Below, one piece after another: positions 457-64,000 of a stretch of 64,000 nucleotides of DNA. Location of the stretch: NCBI GenBank assembly GCA_021108395.1, contig JAIOQZ010000011.1, forward strand, positions 51,898 to 115,897, read 5' to 3'. A model generated the notes under the pieces. That model saw only the letters and a program-made list of their open reading frames with translations, was not told the DNA's origin and did not search any database. The translations under genes and the position numbers were made by a program. The number at the start of each line of letters is the position of its first letter. Position 1 is the first letter of the stretch. This stretch comes from Candidatus Cloacimonadota bacterium (GTDB lineage: Bacteria > Cloacimonadota > Cloacimonadia > Cloacimonadales > JAIOQZ01).

Positions 457-757
457 AGACAGGGACTCTGCCCCTGAAGTATGGGGCGCTGCCCCTAAAC
501 CCCGCTCGCCTTTTGTAAAAGGCGAGACCAAAAACTTTTGCGGATACTGCGTATCCTATGTACATAACACATTCTTGTGACACAAGGATGCGATAGCATC
601 CGCCAGAAGTTTTTGATCCAAACTTTTTACAAAAAGTTTGGCTTATCGCGGAGCTATGTCACTCCGCTACGCTACATGAGCCTTCTACAGCGGAGTGAGG
701 CGGTCGCGTAGTGTAACAGAGTGACTCTTCCAGTGGTTCAGGGGCGGCACCCCTGTC
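457..757. repeat. MITE-like multi-hairpin intergenic repeat, copy 1 (full length)
   Basis: Terminal motifs caagacaggg...ccct and ggttcaggggcggcacccctgtctt; internal hairpins CTCGCCTTTTGTAAAAGGCGAG, GGATACTGCGTATCC, GGATGCGATAGCATCC, CCAAACTTTTTACAAAAAGTTTGG; shared with other copies in the window. Confidence 0.85.
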
Positions 758-759
758 TT

Positions 760-1920
760 CTATTGCAAGTCGTTGTAGAGCTTGTTGTACCTATCTGCGT
801 CGGCGGTACGGCCCAGGTTGTTGGCGGCCTGATACAGGAACATCACCGGCATCGGGTCTTCGGGCGCTGCCGCGTGCCACTTCTCGCCGGATTCGATCAG
901 GTCTTCCCAGCGCTCGGTGGCGAACAGCTTCGAGCAGATGGTTTCCAGCCATTCGATATTGCCGGGCTCGGCGTCGATAGCCTTCTGGAGGTAGAGGATA
1001 GACTCGTCGGGTTTGTCGAGCTGCGAGGCGAGGTTGCTGGCCCAGGTGAGCGCTTCGGTGTTGCCCGGCTCGAGATCAGACACGCGCACGAAGGCGTCGA
1101 AAGCGCCCTGGTTGTCGGGTATCTGTAGGTAGGTCACCGCCATGTTGTAATAGTTGTCCACCGCTTCCGGCTCCACCTCGGCGGCCTTTTGGTACCACTC
1201 GACGGCCTTGCCGTAATCTTCTGTCTCGTAGTAGAGCGCGGCCACGTTGCGGTACAGCGCGCCATCATCGGACATTAACGCCGCCTGCTCGAAATATTCG
1301 AGAGCCTGCTCGTTCTTCTCCTGCTTCATGCAGATGTTGGCCATCAGGGTGATGGCGCCGAGGTATTCGGGGTCAAGCTCGATGACCTTCAGGGCGACGC
1401 TTTCGGCCAGCTCGTAGTTAGCTTTGTTCATCTGGTTGATGGCGATGTTGTACAGCCTGACACGGCAGCTCTTCAGCTTCTTTTCAGCGTCATCCTGTAG
1501 TTCGAGCTGCTTCTCGCGCTTGCCGCCGGTCTCGTAGTTGTCGGGAACCTGTAGAGCGGCGAGGCAGCGGTCAAGAAAATCGTAAGCCACGAGGTAGTGC
1601 TCGACAGCTATTTCCGGCGCGGCGTGCACACGGGCGCCGTCTTCTGTGGAAGCGTACTGTCCCTTGTTCTCGCCCCAATAAAAATAGAGGTCTCCCATAT
1701 TCTTCAGCGCGTCGATGTAGTCGGGCTGAATCTCGAGAACTTTCATGTAGTTTTCGGCGGCCTTGTCCCAGTTTTCCTGACCCCAGTACATATTGCCGCT
1801 GCGCATAAACCGTTTTGCTTCGCCACTCAGCTTCTGCTTGGCCGACAAGACGGCGCATAGCGCGAGAAGGATTGCCATTATCACTATAATGCGTGTCATT
1901 CTGGTCGTTCCGTAAAACAT
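760..1920 (-). CDS. TPR-repeat protein with N-terminal signal/anchor
   Basis: Repeated TPR motifs (WDKAAENYMKVLEIQPDYIDALKNMGDLY, EQALEYFEQAALM, YGKAVEWYQKAAEVEPEAVDNYYNMA). Confidence 0.85.
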   Translation of the reverse strand: MFYGTTRMTRIIVIMAILLALCAVLSAKQKLSGEAKRFMRSGNMYWGQENWDKAAENYMKVLEIQPDYIDALKNMGDLYFYWGENKGQYASTEDGARVHAAPEIAVEHYLVAYDFLDRCLAALQVPDNYETGGKREKQLELQDDAEKKLKSCRVRLYNIAINQMNKANYELAESVALKVIELDPEYLGAITLMANICMKQEKNEQALEYFEQAALMSDDGALYRNVAALYYETEDYGKAVEWYQKAAEVEPEAVDNYYNMAVTYLQIPDNQGAFDAFVRVSDLEPGNTEALTWASNLASQLDKPDESILYLQKAIDAEPGNIEWLETICSKLFATERWEDLIESGEKWHAAAPEDPMPVMFLYQAANNLGRTADADRYNKLYNDLQ

Positions 1921-32913: not shown

Positions 32914-32995
32914 CTTGCCTTTTACAAAAGGCGAGCTTGTCATGTAGCGAAGCGGAGTGAGCCTTCTATGGGGTGGGGGCAGCGCCCCTGTCTTA
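32914..32995. repeat. MITE-like multi-hairpin repeat, copy 2 (one end only)
   Basis: gccttttacaaaaggcgagcttgtcatgtagcgaagcggagtgagccttctatggggtgggggcagcgcccctgtctta, matching the end of copy 5. Confidence 0.8.
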
Positions 32996-34279
32996 CTGCT
33001 CTTGCGGCGGCACCACAATCCAGCGAAACTCGCGCAAGCCGTCGAGGGGGTTGCCGGCGGCGTCGGTGGTGGCCTGGTCCAGTTCGAGGCGATAGGTGGC
33101 GTAGGGTTTGAGCGGAGCGGATGGCTGTAGCATATAGATGTCGCTGTCGCCGGAAAGAACGTCGAGGCTCACCTCGCGCCCGCTTTCGTCGTGCACCAGC
33201 CGAAACAAAGCATTGCCTGCGGGAATAATCTCGGAGAAGCGCACGGTGAGCGCCGGCAGAACCTCTGTGAGCACAGCGCCGCTGCGTGGACTACTGCCCA
33301 GCGCTTCCGGGCGCAGTGTATCGGGCAGGACGAGGGCGTCGAAGAAAAGCGAGTCGGTTGCGGTGCGGTTGCCCCTGCTGTCGCGGGCGCCATGCAGCTT
33401 CACCAGATAGCGGCCTTCGATCATTGGCGACAGCAGCAGTTGAATCTCGGTATCGTGCAGCACAGCGTGGGTCACTTCTTGCGGCGCGGACAGCGAGTCG
33501 GCCGAAATGACCTCGACAGACGCGAACCCGACCAGCGGCTCGCTCGCCTCGAGACTCACCTGACGCTCGGAGTGCGGCACAGCGCGCTTGAGCGTGGGCG
33601 GCAGGGTGTCCTCGACCGCCATTTCGAGTCGTAACGAAACCCGCTGCTCCGCCGGCGCAAGCGCCTCGACGCGCAGGTCATTGCCATACTGATAACGTCC
33701 ATCGTCTGCCACGTCGGCCCAGGCGCGCAGCAGGTGCGGCTCGATGTTGAGATGTTCGAGCGCGAATGTAGCCTCGTTCACCACCCAGCTTGCGATGAAG
33801 GTGGTGTCGGCGGAGAAAAGGTCGAGCTGCACAGGCAAACCGGCAAGCTCCGGATTCTCCCAGTCAAACGCACCAGCAATGCGTCCCTGTTGCAGCTTGC
33901 CATGACGAAACACGAACACTTCCGGTTCTGGCAAAGCGTTGCCGTGGGTGTCTTTGAGCTCGCGGCCAAGCCACAGCGTGTAGTTGGTGTCCTCGGCCAG
34001 CTCCTCACGCAGTTCGATTATCATCGTCTGCGAATCTGGCCAGCGCAGCTTGCGGTCGAGCACAAGCGGATAGAGCTTTATTCCGGTGAGCGCACTGTTG
34101 CGGTCGATGGGCTTGGAAAAAACAACCGTGATGCGATTGCCCAGTGAGTCGAGCGGGGCGGGTTGCACATCAAGCACCTCGGGGGCGACGGTGTCGCGGG
34201 GGCCGCCGGAGGGGGCTTTGCGATGTCCGCAAGCGGAGACAATCAGAAAAAGAAGCGCGAGACTAATAGCCCTGTTCAC
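32993..34279 (-). CDS. Lipoprotein with SbsA-type Ig-like domains
   Basis: Lipobox FLIVSACGHRK; DTVAPEVLDVQPAPLDSLGNRITVVFSKPIDRNS...; DAAGNPLDGLREFRW. Confidence 0.8.
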   Translation of the reverse strand: MNRAISLALLFLIVSACGHRKAPSGGPRDTVAPEVLDVQPAPLDSLGNRITVVFSKPIDRNSALTGIKLYPLVLDRKLRWPDSQTMIIELREELAEDTNYTLWLGRELKDTHGNALPEPEVFVFRHGKLQQGRIAGAFDWENPELAGLPVQLDLFSADTTFIASWVVNEATFALEHLNIEPHLLRAWADVADDGRYQYGNDLRVEALAPAEQRVSLRLEMAVEDTLPPTLKRAVPHSERQVSLEASEPLVGFASVEVISADSLSAPQEVTHAVLHDTEIQLLLSPMIEGRYLVKLHGARDSRGNRTATDSLFFDALVLPDTLRPEALGSSPRSGAVLTEVLPALTVRFSEIIPAGNALFRLVHDESGREVSLDVLSGDSDIYMLQPSAPLKPYATYRLELDQATTDAAGNPLDGLREFRWIVVPPQEQ

Positions 34280-35901: not shown

Positions 35902-36128
35902 GAAGAGCAGGGGCGCTGCCCCTTTTGAAGGCTCACTTCGCTTTGCTGCACGACTAACCCCGCTCGCCTTTTGTAAAAGGCGAGACCGAAAACTTATAAC
36001 GGATGCTTTGCATCCTTTGTGTCAAAAGAGTATTACTGTACATAGGAAACGCAGTTTCCGCCAGAAGTTTTTGATTAAACTTTTTGCAAAAAGTTTACGG
36101 GGAGTCAGAGGCGGCGCTCCTGCTCTTT
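35902..36128. repeat. MITE-like multi-hairpin repeat, copy 3 (full length)
   Basis: Left end gaagagcaggggcgctgcccc, right end cggggagtcagaggcggcgctcctgctcttt (inverted); internal CTCGCCTTTTGTAAAAGGCGAG, GGATGCTTTGCATCC, TAAACTTTTTGCAAAAAGTTTA. Confidence 0.88.
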
Positions 36129-36947
36129 AAGGCTCAGGGCGCGCTCATAGACGCGGTTGCGCGGCGCGCCTGTTTGACGGCACACGGCTTTCACGGCGTC
36201 AGAGCGGCTGTCTCCGGCGGCCAGGCGCTCTCGCAGCAGCGCGTCCAGGGCGTCGTCACTCGCCTCGGCAGGCGTGGCGCCCTTAATCACCACCACGAAC
36301 TCGCCCTTCCACACCACGCCGCCCTCTGCGAACAGCAGCTCCGACAGCTTGCCACGATGGAAGCTCTCGAAGTGTTTAGAAATCTCGCGGGCAAGGCAGG
36401 CGCGGCGGTCTCCGAGATGCTCCAGCAACTCCGCGAGGAATGCGCGGATGCGGTGCGGCGCCTCATAGAATACCAGCGTGTCGGGCATGGCGGCAAGGCG
36501 CAACAGCAGCGCCTCGCGCTCCGAGACTTTGGCCGGCGCAAATCCGGCGAAGTAGAATCTGGCGGTATCGAAGCCGCTGGCTGTGAGCGCCGGTACCAGC
36601 GCCGTTGCGCCTGGCAATGGGCTCACCGGCAACCCCTCCTGTATGGCCAGTCGCACAAGGATGCCCGACGGGTCGCTGATGCCTGGCGAGCCGGCGTCGC
36701 TCACCACAGCCACATCCTCACCATTGCGAAGTCGCTCCAGCAACTGCTCGGCACGGCTGCGCTCGTTGAACTTGTGATAGCTCAACATGGGCGTGTCGAT
36801 GCTGTAATGCCGCAGCAGCACCGCTGTGGTGCGGGTGTCTTCGCAGGCGATTACCGCCACGCTCCGCAACGTCTCTATTGCTCGCTGGGTGATGTCACCC
36901 AGATTGCCCACAGGCGTGGGCGCCAGCCACAGCGTTCCGGTTTTCAT
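36105..36947 (-). CDS. rsmI: 16S rRNA 2'-O-ribose C1402 methyltransferase RsmI
   Basis: GTLWLAPTPVGNLGDITQRAIETLRSVAVIACEDTRTTAVLLRHY; VVSDAGSPGISDPSGILVR. Confidence 0.95.
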   Translation of the reverse strand: MKTGTLWLAPTPVGNLGDITQRAIETLRSVAVIACEDTRTTAVLLRHYSIDTPMLSYHKFNERSRAEQLLERLRNGEDVAVVSDAGSPGISDPSGILVRLAIQEGLPVSPLPGATALVPALTASGFDTARFYFAGFAPAKVSEREALLLRLAAMPDTLVFYEAPHRIRAFLAELLEHLGDRRACLAREISKHFESFHRGKLSELLFAEGGVVWKGEFVVVIKGATPAEASDDALDALLRERLAAGDSRSDAVKAVCRQTGAPRNRVYERALSLKEQERRL

Positions 36948-36990
36948 GTCGCGAAATTCCTCAAACGTATGTTTCCTCTGCAAAAATTGA

Positions 36991-37028
36991 CCGCGGGCGC
37001 ACAGACACTCGTCCTGACACACCCGCGG
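36991..37028 (-). terminator. Stem-loop terminator downstream of kbl
   Basis: ccgcgggcgc...acacccgcgg inverted repeat immediately after kbl. Confidence 0.55.
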
Positions 37029-42535: not shown

Positions 42536-43479
42536 CACAGCCTCCCTTTCAGCGTCGTCAGCATATCCTTCGTCATTGAGGGCAGGTCGTATTCGTGCTG
42601 CCAGCCCCATTCCTCGCGGGCGGCGGAGTCGTCCATGCGGTCTGGCCAGCTGTCTGCAATGGCCTGGCGCACGGGATCGATGCTATAGCCCATCTCGAAG
42701 CCGTGAACGTGCTTGCATATCTCGGCGCAGATGTGCTCCGGCGCAAAGCTCATGGCGGCCACGTTGAAGCAGTTGCGGTGCACCAGCCTGTCCGGGTCGG
42801 CCTCCATCATCTCGACGGCGGCGCGGGTGGCGTCGGGCATGTACATCATATCGAGGTAGGTGCCGGGCTGGAGGTTGCAGGTGTAATGCTTGTGCTGCAA
42901 GGCATCGTAGTAGATGTGCACGGCGTAGTCGGTGGTGCCGCCGCCGGGCTTTGCCGTATTGCTGATGATACCCGGATAGCGCACTCCGCGGGTGTCAACG
43001 CCGAACCTGGCGAAATAATAGTCGCACAGCAGCTCGCCCGCCACCTTGGTGACGCCGTAAATGGAGGTGGGGCGCTGGATGGTGTCCTGCGGCGTGTCCT
43101 GCTTGGGCGAACTGGGCCCGAACGCGCCTATCGAGCTGGGCGTGAACACGGCGAAATCGAGCTCTCTGGCCACCTCGAGGATATTCAGCAGCCCCCCCAT
43201 GTTGACCTTCCAGGCGAGCTGAGGCTTTGCCTCGGCCACTGCCGAAAGCAGCGCTGCGAGGTTGTACACCGTGTCGATGCCGTGTGCCTTCGCCACCTCT
43301 GCCAGGCGCTTGCCGTCGAGGCAGTCGATGATTTCGTAGGGGCCGTCTTTGAGCACAGGCGGGACATCGTCGCGGATGTCTGAGGCTACCACGTTTGATT
43401 CACCGTAAAGTTTGCGAAGAAAGGGAACAAGTTCCGTACCAATCTGCCCTGCGGCGCCGATGACCAAAATCTTTTTCAA
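42535..43479 (-). CDS. tdh: L-threonine 3-dehydrogenase, extended SDR (epimerase-like) type
   Basis: ILVIGAAGQIGTELVPFLRKLYG; YNLAALLSAVAEAKPQLAWKVNMGGLLNILEVARE; YGVTKVAGELLCDYYFARFGVDTRGVRYPGIIS. Confidence 0.88.
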   Translation of the reverse strand: MKKILVIGAAGQIGTELVPFLRKLYGESNVVASDIRDDVPPVLKDGPYEIIDCLDGKRLAEVAKAHGIDTVYNLAALLSAVAEAKPQLAWKVNMGGLLNILEVARELDFAVFTPSSIGAFGPSSPKQDTPQDTIQRPTSIYGVTKVAGELLCDYYFARFGVDTRGVRYPGIISNTAKPGGGTTDYAVHIYYDALQHKHYTCNLQPGTYLDMMYMPDATRAAVEMMEADPDRLVHRNCFNVAAMSFAPEHICAEICKHVHGFEMGYSIDPVRQAIADSWPDRMDDSAAREEWGWQHEYDLPSMTKDMLTTLKGRL

Positions 43480-51538: not shown

Positions 51539-51572
51539 TGTCTTGCAAACACTCGAACAGCAAGGAGAAAAA

Positions 51573-51926
51573 ATGGAACATCTGACATTGCAGACATTCA
51601 AGGATAAGATATACGACTGGGAACAGAACAAGGAATGGAGCTTCAAGGGCGAACGCCCGGCTGTCATCGATTTCTATGCCGACTGGTGCGCCCCATGCAA
51701 GCAACTTGCGCCCACCATGGACGAACTGAGCGAGGAATACGACGGCAAGGTCGATTTCTTCAAGGTCAACACCGAGCAGGAAGGCGAATTGTCGGGCTTG
51801 TTCGGCATCCAGAGTATTCCGTCCATCCTGTTCATTCCAGTTGGTGAACAACCACAGATGGCCGGCGGCGCGCTGCCCAAGGAATCGTTCAAAGAACTTA
51901 TCGAAAAAGTCCTGCACATCATGTAA
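51573..51926 (+). CDS. trxA: Thioredoxin
   Basis: AVIDFYADWCAPCKQLAPTMDELSEEYDGKVDFFKVNTEQEGELSGLFGIQSIPSILF. Confidence 0.94.
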   Translation: MEHLTLQTFKDKIYDWEQNKEWSFKGERPAVIDFYADWCAPCKQLAPTMDELSEEYDGKVDFFKVNTEQEGELSGLFGIQSIPSILFIPVGEQPQMAGGALPKESFKELIEKVLHIM

Positions 51927-52060
51927 GACAGGGACGCTGTCCCTGAACCCCGCCAAACTTTTTGCAAAAAGTTTGGATCAAAAACTCTTGCGGAAACTCT
52001 GTTTCCTATGTACAGTAATATTATCTTGTACACAGGATACGCAGTATCCGTCAAAAGTTG
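51924..52060. repeat. MITE-like multi-hairpin repeat, copy 4 (right end truncated)
   Basis: taagacagggacgctgtccctgaaccccgccaaactttttgcaaaaagtttggatcaaaaactcttgcgga...ggatacgcagtatccgtcaaaag. Confidence 0.85.
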
Positions 52061-54159
52061 GGCAGCGTATGTATGATGAAGGCGTATTGCATCGCAAGTT
52101 CGCGGTAGAAGTCATAGCGGCCTGAAGCGCCTGCGTGCCCACCACTCATGTCTGTGCGCAGCAGCAACGGGTTATCGTCGGTCTTGAGATAGCGCAGCCT
52201 GGCCACCAGTTTGGCAGGCTCCCAGTAGTTCACACGCGGGTCGTAAAACCCAGCCAACACAATCATTGCCGGGTAGTCTTGCGCCGTGACGTTCTGGTAT
52301 GGACAGTAGCCGAGAATGCTCTGGAAGTATCGTTCTTCGTTCGGGTCGCCCCACTCCTCGTACTCACTGATGGTGGCCGACAGCGTCGGGTCGAGCATGG
52401 TGTTGAGCACATCCACGAACGGCACATCGGCGATTATGACTGCGAACAGGTCGGGGCGCATGTTGGCCACTGCGCCAATGAGCAACCCGCCAGCGCTGGC
52501 GCCATAGCCCACAAGCTGGTCGGGATTGGTGTAGCCGCTGTCAACGAGGTATTCGGCGCAGGCGATGTAATCGCTGAACGTGTTAGCCTTGTGCAACATG
52601 CGGCCATCCTCATGCCACTGCTGTCCCAGATCGCCGCCGCCGCGCACATGCGCCAGTGCATAGACAAAGCCTCTGTCAACCAGGCTGAGCATAGCGCTGA
52701 AGAACATCGGGTCATTCGGGTCGCCATAGGCGCCATAACCTTCGAGATAGCAGGGGTTGCCACCGTCAGCACGCAGCATGTCGGGGCGATAGAATAGCGT
52801 GATGGACACCTTCACGCCATCTGATGCTGTAGCCCACACACGCTCGGTGTGGTAAAGTGACGCATCGTAGTCCTTCACTTCCTGCTGCTTCAACAGGCTC
52901 AACTCGCGGGTGCGGCAGTTGTATTCATACACCGAGTGCGGAGTGGCCAGCGATGTGTAGGTGAAACGCAACGTTTCGTCCTCGTACTCGGTGAAATAGC
53001 CCCCGCCAATTGTGTAAACATCCTCCGGCATGCTCAGGTAGTGCTCTTCGCCGCTGTCCAGATGAATGAGCCGCAACCGGCGAACGCCATCAACCCGCTC
53101 GATGACGGCCATCCAGTCCTGCGAGATGGTGCAGCCAACGTCAACGGTTTCGCGCCAGGGGATGTAGCCGCGCCAGTTCTCGCGTCCCAGGCTGTCTTCA
53201 TGAGTCCAGGCAATCTTATAGCTCGAGGCGCCGTCGGCGTTGGTGGTGATGAAAAAGCCGTCGTCGCGGTGGTCGAGATAGTATTCGACGCCCTGTTCAC
53301 GCGGGGCGACAAGCTCGAACGGCTCGTCGGGGCTGTCGGCGGGCATCACCCACATCTCGCTGGTGGTCTTGCTGCCCGCGCCCATGACGATGTATTCATC
53401 GGACGCCGTGCGATAGGTGTAGAGATAGAAGCGGCCATCGGGTTCGTAAAACAGGTGCGTGTCCTCGTCCGCGCCCAGATCGTGACGCCAGAGGTTGTCG
53501 CTGCGGCCGGATTCGTCGTCGGTGGTGTAGAAGATGGCGGCGGCGGCGGCCCAGGTGACGTCGCTGGCGCCGGGGATGATGTCCGGCAGCAACTCGCCGG
53601 TGATCAGGTCTTTTATCACCAGCGTATATATCTCGTCGGCGGTGGTGTCGTAACTGTAGGCCAGCAGAGTCTGGTCGGGCGAGAGACTGAAGCTGCCCAG
53701 CGCGTAATACTCGTGCCCTGTGGCCAGTTCGTTCATGTCGAGATAGATTTGCTCGGGGGCATCCATGCTGCCCTGTCGTCGGCAGAAGATGGGATATTGC
53801 AGCCCTTCGCTGCGGCGACTGTAGTAATACCAGCCGTCTTCTTTGTCGGGCACGCTCAGGTCGGTCTCGGCGATGCGCCCGATGATCTCCTCGAACAGGC
53901 TGTCCTCGAGCGCGGCCAGCGGCTTCATCCACGCCTCGGCGTAGGCGTTCTCGGCCTCGACGTAACTCAAGACCCCCGGCACCGTGCGCGATTTATCCTT
54001 CAGCCAGTGATAGGGGTCTTGCACAACGACGCCGTGCAGCGTGTCGGCATGTGCGATGCGTTGGGCCACAGGCGGTTCAGGTTTCGAGGCCTGCGGGGCT
54101 ACGTGGGCGCAGGCGGTTATTGTCAATGTTACAAGCAGGATACAAAACAAGCGGTTCAT
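52051..54159 (-). CDS. S9 prolyl oligopeptidase family (oligopeptidase B-like), lipoprotein signal
   Basis: MNRLFCILLVTLTITACAHV lipobox; PYLEGYGAYGDPNDPMF; GYGASAGGLLIGAVANMRPDLFAVIIADVPFVDVLNTM. Confidence 0.92.
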   Translation of the reverse strand: MNRLFCILLVTLTITACAHVAPQASKPEPPVAQRIAHADTLHGVVVQDPYHWLKDKSRTVPGVLSYVEAENAYAEAWMKPLAALEDSLFEEIIGRIAETDLSVPDKEDGWYYYSRRSEGLQYPIFCRRQGSMDAPEQIYLDMNELATGHEYYALGSFSLSPDQTLLAYSYDTTADEIYTLVIKDLITGELLPDIIPGASDVTWAAAAAIFYTTDDESGRSDNLWRHDLGADEDTHLFYEPDGRFYLYTYRTASDEYIVMGAGSKTTSEMWVMPADSPDEPFELVAPREQGVEYYLDHRDDGFFITTNADGASSYKIAWTHEDSLGRENWRGYIPWRETVDVGCTISQDWMAVIERVDGVRRLRLIHLDSGEEHYLSMPEDVYTIGGGYFTEYEDETLRFTYTSLATPHSVYEYNCRTRELSLLKQQEVKDYDASLYHTERVWATASDGVKVSITLFYRPDMLRADGGNPCYLEGYGAYGDPNDPMFFSAMLSLVDRGFVYALAHVRGGGDLGQQWHEDGRMLHKANTFSDYIACAEYLVDSGYTNPDQLVGYGASAGGLLIGAVANMRPDLFAVIIADVPFVDVLNTMLDPTLSATISEYEEWGDPNEERYFQSILGYCPYQNVTAQDYPAMIVLAGFYDPRVNYWEPAKLVARLRYLKTDDNPLLLRTDMSGGHAGASGRYDFYRELAMQYAFIIHTLPNF

Positions 54160-54212
54160 GCAAACTCCTCGACGATAATACTTCGGAGAACCGCTCATGC
54201 ACGGCGCGTTCC

Positions 54213-54517
54213 AAGAGCAGGGGCGCTGCCCCTGAACCCCGTCCACTTTTTGTAAAAAGTGGAATCAAAAACTTCTGGCGGATGCTGCGCATCCTTGTGT
54301 CAAAAGAATTATGGTTATGTGTCACTAAGAAAAACTATTGTACATTAGGATACGCAGTATCCGTAATAAGTTTTCGGTCTCGCCTGCGAAAATCGGCTTC
54401 ATAGCCGATTGTTCGTCCCAGGAGCAAAAGGTGTTTACACCGTTTCTCCCAAAAAGGCGAGCTTGTCATGTAGCGGAGTGAGCTTTCAAAAGGTTCAGGG
54501 GCAGCGCCCCTGTCTTC
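54213..54517. repeat. MITE-like multi-hairpin repeat, copy 5 (full length, with nested insert)
   Basis: Left aagagcaggggcgctgcccctgaaccccg and right ggttcaggggcagcgcccctgtctt are inverted repeats; internal hairpins CCACTTTTTGTAAAAAGTGG, GGATGCTGCGCATCC, GGATACGCAGTATCC. Confidence 0.9.
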
Positions 54518-63032: not shown

Positions 63033-64000
63033 ATGCAAAATCCACTTGCCGTTTTATTCGCCGGTCGCCAGGTAAAACCGACCGCGGACACCGCTGTAGC
63101 GGTGGCAGGTGGCGCCTCTTTCCTGCAATTCCTCACGCAATCACCCCGTAACAGCGCCAAATCGATGCAAGCCCTCACGCCGGAAGTGGCGCAGAGCTTT
63201 TTGGAAGGCAAGCTCGACGTACGCATGCAAAGCGGTGGCAAGGTGTTCAGCCTGCAACAACTGCTCCAGCGCGCCGAGAGTGACCCGAAGGCGGCTTCTC
63301 GTCTCTGGAACGATCTCCGCTCCGGCAATATGCAATTGCTGGACATTGTCGAAGTCGCACAGGCCGCACAGCGGCATCACGTACAGGTACCCCAGAAGCA
63401 GGCCGCACAAGAACAGGCGAGGCCCGCCGCGCCAGCCGCAACGCTAACGCGGAAGCAACTCCACCAGCAAGCCGCGCTCGGCGATTTCTCTTCCCTGCTA
63501 CTTTTCTCTCCGGGCAAAGTCGCGCAGGTCGCACAGGTCGCACAGCGACTTCATGTACAGGCACCCCATAAGCAGGCCGCACAAGAACAGGCGAGGCCTG
63601 CCGCGCCAGCCGCAACGTTAACGCGGAAACAGCTCCGTCAGCAAGCCACGCTCGGCGATTTCTCATCTCTGCTACTTTTCTCTCCGGGCAAAGTCGCGCA
63701 GGTCGCACAGGTCGCACAGCGACTTCATGTACAGGCACCCCATAAGCAGGCCGCACAAGAACAGGCGAGGCCTGCCGCGCCAGCCGCAACGCCTAACGCT
63801 CAGGCGGTCACACAGAAGCTTTCAGCCCAGCCTCAGCCGCAAGTAGCACCAAAACAGGCTGCCACGCTTAAACTTTCTACCCAACCTAAGCCGCAAGCAA
63901 CGCAGAAACAGGCGAAGCCTGCCGCAACGCCTAACGCTAAGGTGGCCACTCAGAAGCTTTCAGTCCAGCCTAAGCCGCAAGCAACGCAGAAACAGGCTGT
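63033..64000 (+). CDS. fliK: Probable flagellar hook-length control protein FliK, N-terminal part (open at window end)
   Basis: MQNPLAVLFAGRQVKPTADTAVAVAGGASFLQFLTQSPRNSAK..., Gln/Ala/Pro-rich low-complexity region; position after fliJ/motE. Confidence 0.65.
   Translation, partial: MQNPLAVLFAGRQVKPTADTAVAVAGGASFLQFLTQSPRNSAKSMQALTPEVAQSFLEGKLDVRMQSGGKVFSLQQLLQRAESDPKAASRLWNDLRSGNMQLLDIVEVAQAAQRHHVQVPQKQAAQEQARPAAPAATLTRKQLHQQAALGDFSSLLLFSPGKVAQVAQVAQRLHVQAPHKQAAQEQARPAAPAATLTRKQLRQQATLGDFSSLLLFSPGKVAQVAQVAQRLHVQAPHKQAAQEQARPAAPAATPNAQAVTQKLSAQPQPQVAPKQAATLKLSTQPKPQATQKQAKPAATPNAKVATQKLSVQPKPQATQKQA
63352..63791 (+). repeat. 174-bp in-frame tandem repeat (58 aa unit, about 2.5 copies)
   Basis: cacagcg...cagg starts recur at 63367, 63541 and 63715; unit encodes QVAQR.HVQ.P.KQAAQEQARPAAPAATLTRKQL.QQA.LGDFSSLLLFSPGKVA. 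Confidence 0.92.

Follow-up and report, generated by a model that had tools for sequence, protein, structure and literature searches.

A dispersed palindromic repeat with two unlike hairpin-bearing arms in a Cloacimonadota genome, and related elements in other phyla

Five copies of a non-coding repeat lie in the window, by which we mean the whole stretch of DNA analysed (64,000 nucleotides). The parts of the element follow a fixed order, H1-linker-H2-linker-I-AT-rich centre-I'-linker-H2'-linker-H1', in which H1, H2 and I are small hairpins. The initial annotation had proposed at least five copies with a layered inverted-repeat design. All five are present, with limits refined to those listed here, and the design holds overall, except that copy 2 has no inner inverted pair and copy 4 has no right H2 or H1. 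Arm types A and B are defined below the list.

456-759: copy 1, a complete element whose right end touches the TAG stop of a gene for a TPR protein (760-1920, minus strand); left arm of type A (H2 CTCGCCTTTTGTAAAAGGCGAG with ACC, inner allele GGATAC), right arm of type B (H2 CCAAACTTTTTACAAAAAGTTTGG with ATC, inner allele GGATGC)
542-556, plus strand: left inner hairpin I of copy 1, GGATACTGCGTATCC
About 32914-32995: copy 2, a right-end remnant with one H2, submodule B (GTAGCGAAGCGGAGTGAGC) and H1
35903-36127: copy 3, a complete element with submodule B at its left
51925 to about 52059: copy 4, its right end shortened at the next gene
54213-54516: copy 5, a complete element between divergent genes; B arm on the left, A arm on the right with an expanded nested H2 and submodule B
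54218-54234, plus strand: left H1 hairpin of copy 5, CAGGGGC-GCT-GCCCCTG
54242-54263, plus strand: left H2 hairpin of copy 5, TCCACTTTTTGTAAAAAGTGGA
54280-54294, plus strand: left inner hairpin I of copy 5, GGATGCTGCGCATCC
54348-54362, minus strand: right inner hairpin I' of copy 5, allele GGATAC, unlike the left allele
54496-54512, minus strand: right H1 hairpin of copy 5

Copy 1 carries two H1-type hairpins in tandem at its left end (one extra H1). Copy 2 adjoins the stop codon of a gene at 32993-34279 (minus strand), and the right-arm H1 of copy 3 provides the stop codon of an rsmI-like gene (36105-37022, minus strand). The AA of copy 4 completes the TAA stop (51924-51926) of a gene at 51543-51926 (plus strand), and the stop of an oligopeptidase-B-like gene (52051-54246, minus strand) lies inside the right part of the same copy. 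The expanded H2 of copy 5, with two nested hairpins (of the AAAATCGGCTTCATAGCCGATT and ACGGTGTAAACACCGT types), replaces the short H2 at 54377-54462, as it also does at loci L002, L003, L004, L005 and L014. Tandem repeats of 174 and 58 nt occupy positions 63354-63999, up to the end of the window.

Read inward, an element end consists of AAGA(G)CA, H1 (AGGGGC-3 nt-GCCCCT), the linker TGAACCCC and then H2, a hairpin of about 10 bp that occurs in the types CTCGC, TACC, CCAC and CAAAC and is followed by ACC or ATC. Inward of this trinucleotide come RAAAACTTYT..GC and the inner hairpin I (GGATGC, GGATAC or GGAAAC with its complement). The AT-rich centre is 25-95 nt long, mostly 29 nt, and often has the form TTGTGTCATAAGAAT...TTGTACATA; the rest is mirrored, with terminal inverted repeats, (T)AAGA(G)CAGGGGC..., at both ends. 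Some copies have a submodule (GTCATGTAGCGAAGCGGAGTGAGC) between H1 and H2, and others an expanded H2 with nested hairpins; complete elements measure 190-325 bp. The H2 types CTCGC and TACC go with ACC (arm type A) and the types CCAC and CAAAC with ATC (arm type B), and most elements have one A arm and one B arm.

To assess the size of the family we used a covariance model, R1, built from an alignment (A1) of 35 half-elements, all from the element's own genome. In this genome (2.89 Mb) R1 found at least 150 half-elements, belonging to 112 elements, and the 38 elements in which both halves scored are head-out without exception. The dispersed modular hairpin family without a gene of its own that was first described from the window therefore has at least 112 members genome-wide. 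An unselected 401 kb of the genome contained 16 clusters, which extrapolates to about 115. In the window, searches allowing up to 3 mismatches found 16 H1-like palindromes (2.9 expected by chance), 4 H2 palindromes (0.2 expected) and 8 inner hairpins (1.2 expected), counts that were reached in none of the dinucleotide-shuffled control sequences. Further copies were sampled from the genome as stretches. Some copies lie at contig ends (G000:C6:3-174, C30:1-172, C24:350-426 and many short G065 contigs); short-read assemblies thus probably break at the repeat, and the true copy numbers are higher. A second palindromic repeat, ACCCCCCTGTCAAGGGGGG ... CCCCCCTTGACAGGGGGG, stands beside one truncated copy (L244:225-355, corresponding to G000:C12, about 43342-43472).

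The hairpins pair almost perfectly. In A1, 97.5% of the cells pair, a figure that falls to 47-65% if the partner is displaced by 1-3 columns. Both sides are altered in 36 cells, and G-U pairs make up only 1 of 629 cells. All but 2 of 350 H2 cells are Watson-Crick, across several alleles. The compensatory changes seen initially in the inner hairpin (GGATAC/GTATCC versus GGATGC/GCATCC, and also GGAAAC/GTTTCC) hold up, with 118 of the 119 inner hairpins sampled from this genome perfectly complementary. Hairpins vary as whole Watson-Crick alleles, with changes coming in blocks, and DNA-level palindromes or module exchange therefore fit better than stepwise RNA evolution. The near absence of G-U pairs fits a palindrome that works on both strands or as DNA. 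No Rfam family scored above its gathering threshold for the element, the only match in the 64-kb window being a tRNA; the element thus has no counterpart among existing Rfam families in that search. Together with the single G-U pair, this disfavours the structural RNA element that the initial annotation had raised as an alternative.

The distribution of the element is wide and patchy. Within its own order, the exact H1 motif was present in 0 of 106 other genomes and R1 found no halves in three relatives; a BLAST DNA search found no copies in 58 relatives. When GTDB genomes were scanned with an H1 motif of 21 bases, more than 119 stretches matched, among others in Acetobacteraceae/Rhodospirillales, gut Clostridia, Desulfovibrionaceae, Magnetococcales and Acidobacteria. 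Twenty-four motif-bearing genomes had 2-105 exact H1 copies each (0 for the reversed control), and a perfect stem, 6 bp or longer, follows H1 in 71 of 87 cases, compared with 85 of 4000 random positions. Matches in Streptomyces are doubtful, a slightly longer motif being absent from the one genome checked.

R1 detected 148 halves in a Ruminococcus MAG, 74 in Clostridiaceae strain 9 and 25 in Oscillibacter sp. 1-3, copies that were not selected by H1, though the genomes were. The best single matches run through H1, H2 and the linker, and include near-identical 60-nt stretches in different phyla (Oscillibacter, E=1e-12); we note that about 20 bits of the score must be discounted for loci fetched by their H1, such as the Oscillibacter match. 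Comparison of the 16S region gave 73.5-74% identity between Oscillibacter and two members of the element's own order, a value that supports placement in different phyla. Gut Clostridia have the same A and B arms and the same grammar, and Acetobacteraceae and Desulfovibrionaceae carry related elements. R1 found no matches in the Pseudoroseomonas and Desulfovibrio genomes, whose elements have the plan in common with the Cloacimonadota element but not the H2 and inner sequences. In Clostridiaceae strain 9 (L085, L089 and L123) the H1 unit also recurs in tandem about every 41 nt, with the spacer GCGCCTGCGCGGCGGGCGGC. Dispersed palindromic repeats are usually regarded as limited to about a genus; in this case a single grammar, in part with the same sequence, connects unrelated phyla that include gut and soil bacteria.

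The two arms of an element are systematically unlike. Only 1 of 41 complete elements has the same inner allele on both arms (14.5 expected by shuffling), and none of 31 has the same H2 class on both (7.2 expected). Because the copies are related, the permutation P values are approximate, and the test was redone on the 28 distinct module combinations: 1 was alike, compared with 9.8 expected (P about 2e-5), or 9.5 expected when the shuffle preserves the link between H2 class and inner allele. H1 lies outside this rule in the element's own genome (2 of 19 alike, 2.1 expected). The linkers stay complementary between the arms although the hairpin alleles differ. Computed RNA energies put local and cross-arm pairing of I almost level for the alleles actually present (mean 0.2 kcal/mol), whereas equal alleles would favour the cross-arm duplex by about 9 kcal/mol. 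Several minimum-free-energy folds pair the linkers across the arms and form H2, and in some also I, locally; others favour longer cross-arm pairing.

Comparable differences are found in foreign genomes. In complete elements of the Ruminococcus MAG, the A-like arm has CAAGCCTTT and GACCGAAACTTT, and the B-like arm has CCAACTTTTT or TGAACTTTTT and ACAAAAACTTTT or ATCAAAAACTTTT. All 20 sampled Pseudoroseomonas elements combine a GGGGTGAC arm with a GGGGTGG arm, a constant pairing that may be built into the element, and their H1 stems follow a weak difference rule (18 of 19 differ; 1 of 19 alike, 3.9 expected, P 0.055). Among nine elements at other foreign loci, H2 is unlike in 8 and H1 in 9. The rule is a sharp clue that local hairpins count, and not one long hairpin. 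Palindrome instability and structure-specific recognition are candidate reasons for it.

The element is placed preferentially behind genes. A neighbouring gene was present at 67 H1 ends; 46 of these ends face the gene's 3' end, and 27 of the 46 sit 1-6 nt behind the stop codon. At a typical junction a host T and the AA of the element form a TAA stop, as at 51924-51926 in the window, and in five genes a TGA inside H1 (-17) is the end of the gene. About half of the 19 elements listed lie between convergent genes, compared with 30 of 283 intergenic intervals. Some element ends are 6-24 nt from a start codon, beside the ribosome-binding site. Genes were called with a simple codon-usage finder, so that starts are approximate and stops are firm. 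The location of the elements is likely to affect translation termination and the mRNA 3' ends of the neighbouring genes.

Filled and empty orthologous sites were found in other taxa. In the genus of the Ruminococcus MAG, the flanking genes are 11-12 nt apart in three species (TGA-12 nt-ATG, TGA-11 nt-ATG and TAA-11 nt-ATG; for instance, TGA-CAGGAGGAGTTT-ATG), and one or two elements lie between the same genes in three congeners. In Pseudoroseomonas, a double hairpin stands behind a TGA in several species and is absent in one genome (G092), where 17 nt separate TGA and ATG. At both sites the modules vary between species and the plan is kept. The comparison is based on one genome per species, with flanks that are 15-30% diverged, so that the joints are approximate and loss is a less likely alternative. 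Mobility is well supported in these related elements, and we infer it for the Cloacimonadota genome. The search for target-site duplications suggested initially gave none recognisable in 28 complete elements, whose flanks were compared by eye. In one genome (L334, G151:C28), one pair of genes encloses two near-identical elements in direct tandem, an arrangement suggestive of whole-element duplication in place.

We also searched for genes that could move the element. The Y1 transposase (PF01797) is absent from the 98% complete own genome, in which control profiles did match. This genome has no gene for an IS4-type transposase (PF01609), and its three genes with an rve domain (PF00665) are not flanked by H1 or other element parts; neither search found an insertion sequence with the element's ends. 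Pairs of facing half-elements were considered as a possible autonomous copy. The one readable pair, in C12, encloses a TPR gene and no transposase; a second pair, in C16, is 6 kb apart. Likewise, no obvious transposase was found among the ORFs of a variant Pseudoroseomonas site that might have held an insertion sequence, and a BLAST comparison of a window copy with plasmid and phage collections gave no match.

Beyond what the initial annotation described, the arm-difference rule, the placement at stop codons, the occurrence in other phyla and the filled and empty orthologous sites bear on what the element is. It is probably a non-autonomous mobile palindromic repeat of two unlike arms that is moved in trans. 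Each arm is a string of three small hairpins (H1, H2 and I), with short linkers complementary between the arms. The predicted fold, whether of one strand alone or of a doubly extruded cruciform, is a ladder: pairing of the linkers from arm to arm would alternate with local H2 and I hairpins in either arm, so that four-way junctions stack on one another. Because the alleles of the two arms differ, a single long hairpin would lose its advantage. A putative trans-acting activity would insert copies chiefly a few bases behind stops, without a clear target duplication; H1 often supplies the stop codon in part or whole. Hairpin modules would swap whole between copies via recombination or template switching. 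We infer a folded substrate, a trans-acting mobiliser and horizontal spread from these patterns, and the occurrence of one grammar across phyla calls for a mobiliser that acts on DNA structure. More tentatively, the elements in several phyla might all belong to one superfamily of hairpin ladders that spreads horizontally. A machinery without a linked gene would then move them, folded as single strands or cruciforms, by reading their structure and distinguishing A from B arms, by analogy with attC recognition.

The placement behind genes could instead reflect selection on a functional RNA element at 3' ends, whose hairpins would delay ribosomes at termination, hold back 3' exonucleases or terminate transcription from both strands. 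The 27 of 46 gene-3'-adjacent ends within 1-6 nt of a stop and the enrichment of convergent gene pairs among sampled elements agree with this explanation, as do the double-hairpin plan retained at an orthologous site despite sequence turnover and the report that REPs within 15 nt of a stop stall ribosomes (PMC12306157). We nevertheless consider it rather unlikely, because there are only about 112 elements in the genome, orthologous genes of sibling species have none, and some copies lie between divergent genes. Moreover, G-U pairs are almost absent, Rfam gave no match, and H2 carries its T run at the 5' side, opposite to the order in an intrinsic terminator. A classical MITE, derived from a DDE insertion sequence by internal deletion and mobilised by the transposase of that insertion sequence via the H1 terminal repeats, would account for the terminal inverted repeats, the many copies, the size of 190-325 bp and the intergenic location. 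It is improbable given the 28 complete elements without target duplication, the H2 and I hairpins that are unlike between arms, the lack of a PF01609 gene, the three rve genes without flanking H1 and the TPR gene in the readable facing pair. The initial description of the repeat as MITE-like and non-autonomous thus survives as a dispersed modular hairpin family with mobility indicated by empty sites elsewhere. A strict MITE is unsupported: no duplication was found, nor any matching insertion sequence in the searches for PF01609 and PF00665 genes, and a MITE should have matching terminal repeats, whereas here H2 and I are unlike in the two arms.

Equally improbable is an origin in place, in which template switching during replication perfects imperfect palindromes, gene conversion spreads a few alleles and each lineage arrived at a similar grammar on its own. 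Templated quasi-palindrome correction does yield covariation in entire Watson-Crick blocks with no intermediate states, and modules do turn over at orthologous sites; yet near-identical 60-nt stretches across phyla (Oscillibacter, E=1e-12; 148 halves in the Ruminococcus MAG) and the contrast of filled with tightly spaced empty sites speak against separate origins. If the element is a mobile repeat moved in trans, templated palindrome correction may well act on the exchange of its modules.

Searches of an open-licence literature collection, its REP papers included, found no description of the grammar of the element; GGGGCTCTGCCCC occurs in no paper of that collection, and the sole paper there with CCCCTGGACCCC is unrelated. 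The element departs from the intrinsic terminator pattern of a G+C-rich hairpin and a T run, since a C-rich linker follows H1, and H2 has its T on the 5' side and its A on the 3' side. With MITEs such as Correia elements, RUP and MITEAba12 it shares terminal inverted repeats, a non-coding nature and an intergenic location; it differs in its unlike arms and in that no target duplication was seen, nor any parental insertion sequence among PF01609 and PF00665 genes. ERIC-type repeats are a single conserved long imperfect palindrome, whereas the present element is a chain of exchangeable hairpins. It resembles the RU-1, RU-2 and RU-3 repeats of this type in enterobacteria in being an intergenic repeat thought to be mobile; these measure 103-168 bp (PMC2759123).

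The closest kind of known repeat is the REP/BIME. As in REPs and BIMEs, short palindromes occur in hundreds of units per genome, extragenically, mostly behind genes and in mosaic composites. Unlike them, the element has a fixed mirrored order and three kinds of hairpin per arm, and it avoids equal alleles on the two arms. The alignment of 35 half-elements shows no GTAG/CGTC tag beside H1, H2 or I, and the genome, unlike those with tagged REPs, has no RAYT/Y1 transposase; with tags and RAYT missing, we do not claim membership among tagged REPs. Untagged REP-like stem-loops have been noted in Mycobacterium tuberculosis, Deinococcus, Bordetella, Brucella and cyanobacteria and named as an open question (PMC3733652). 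Those families are likewise palindromes without a terminal tag; they are listed per organism, whereas here one grammar spans several phyla. GTAG REPs sit behind genes and their termini often provide the stop codon (PMC3733652), as H1 does here, and we therefore describe the element as REP/BIME-like, not as a tagged REP.
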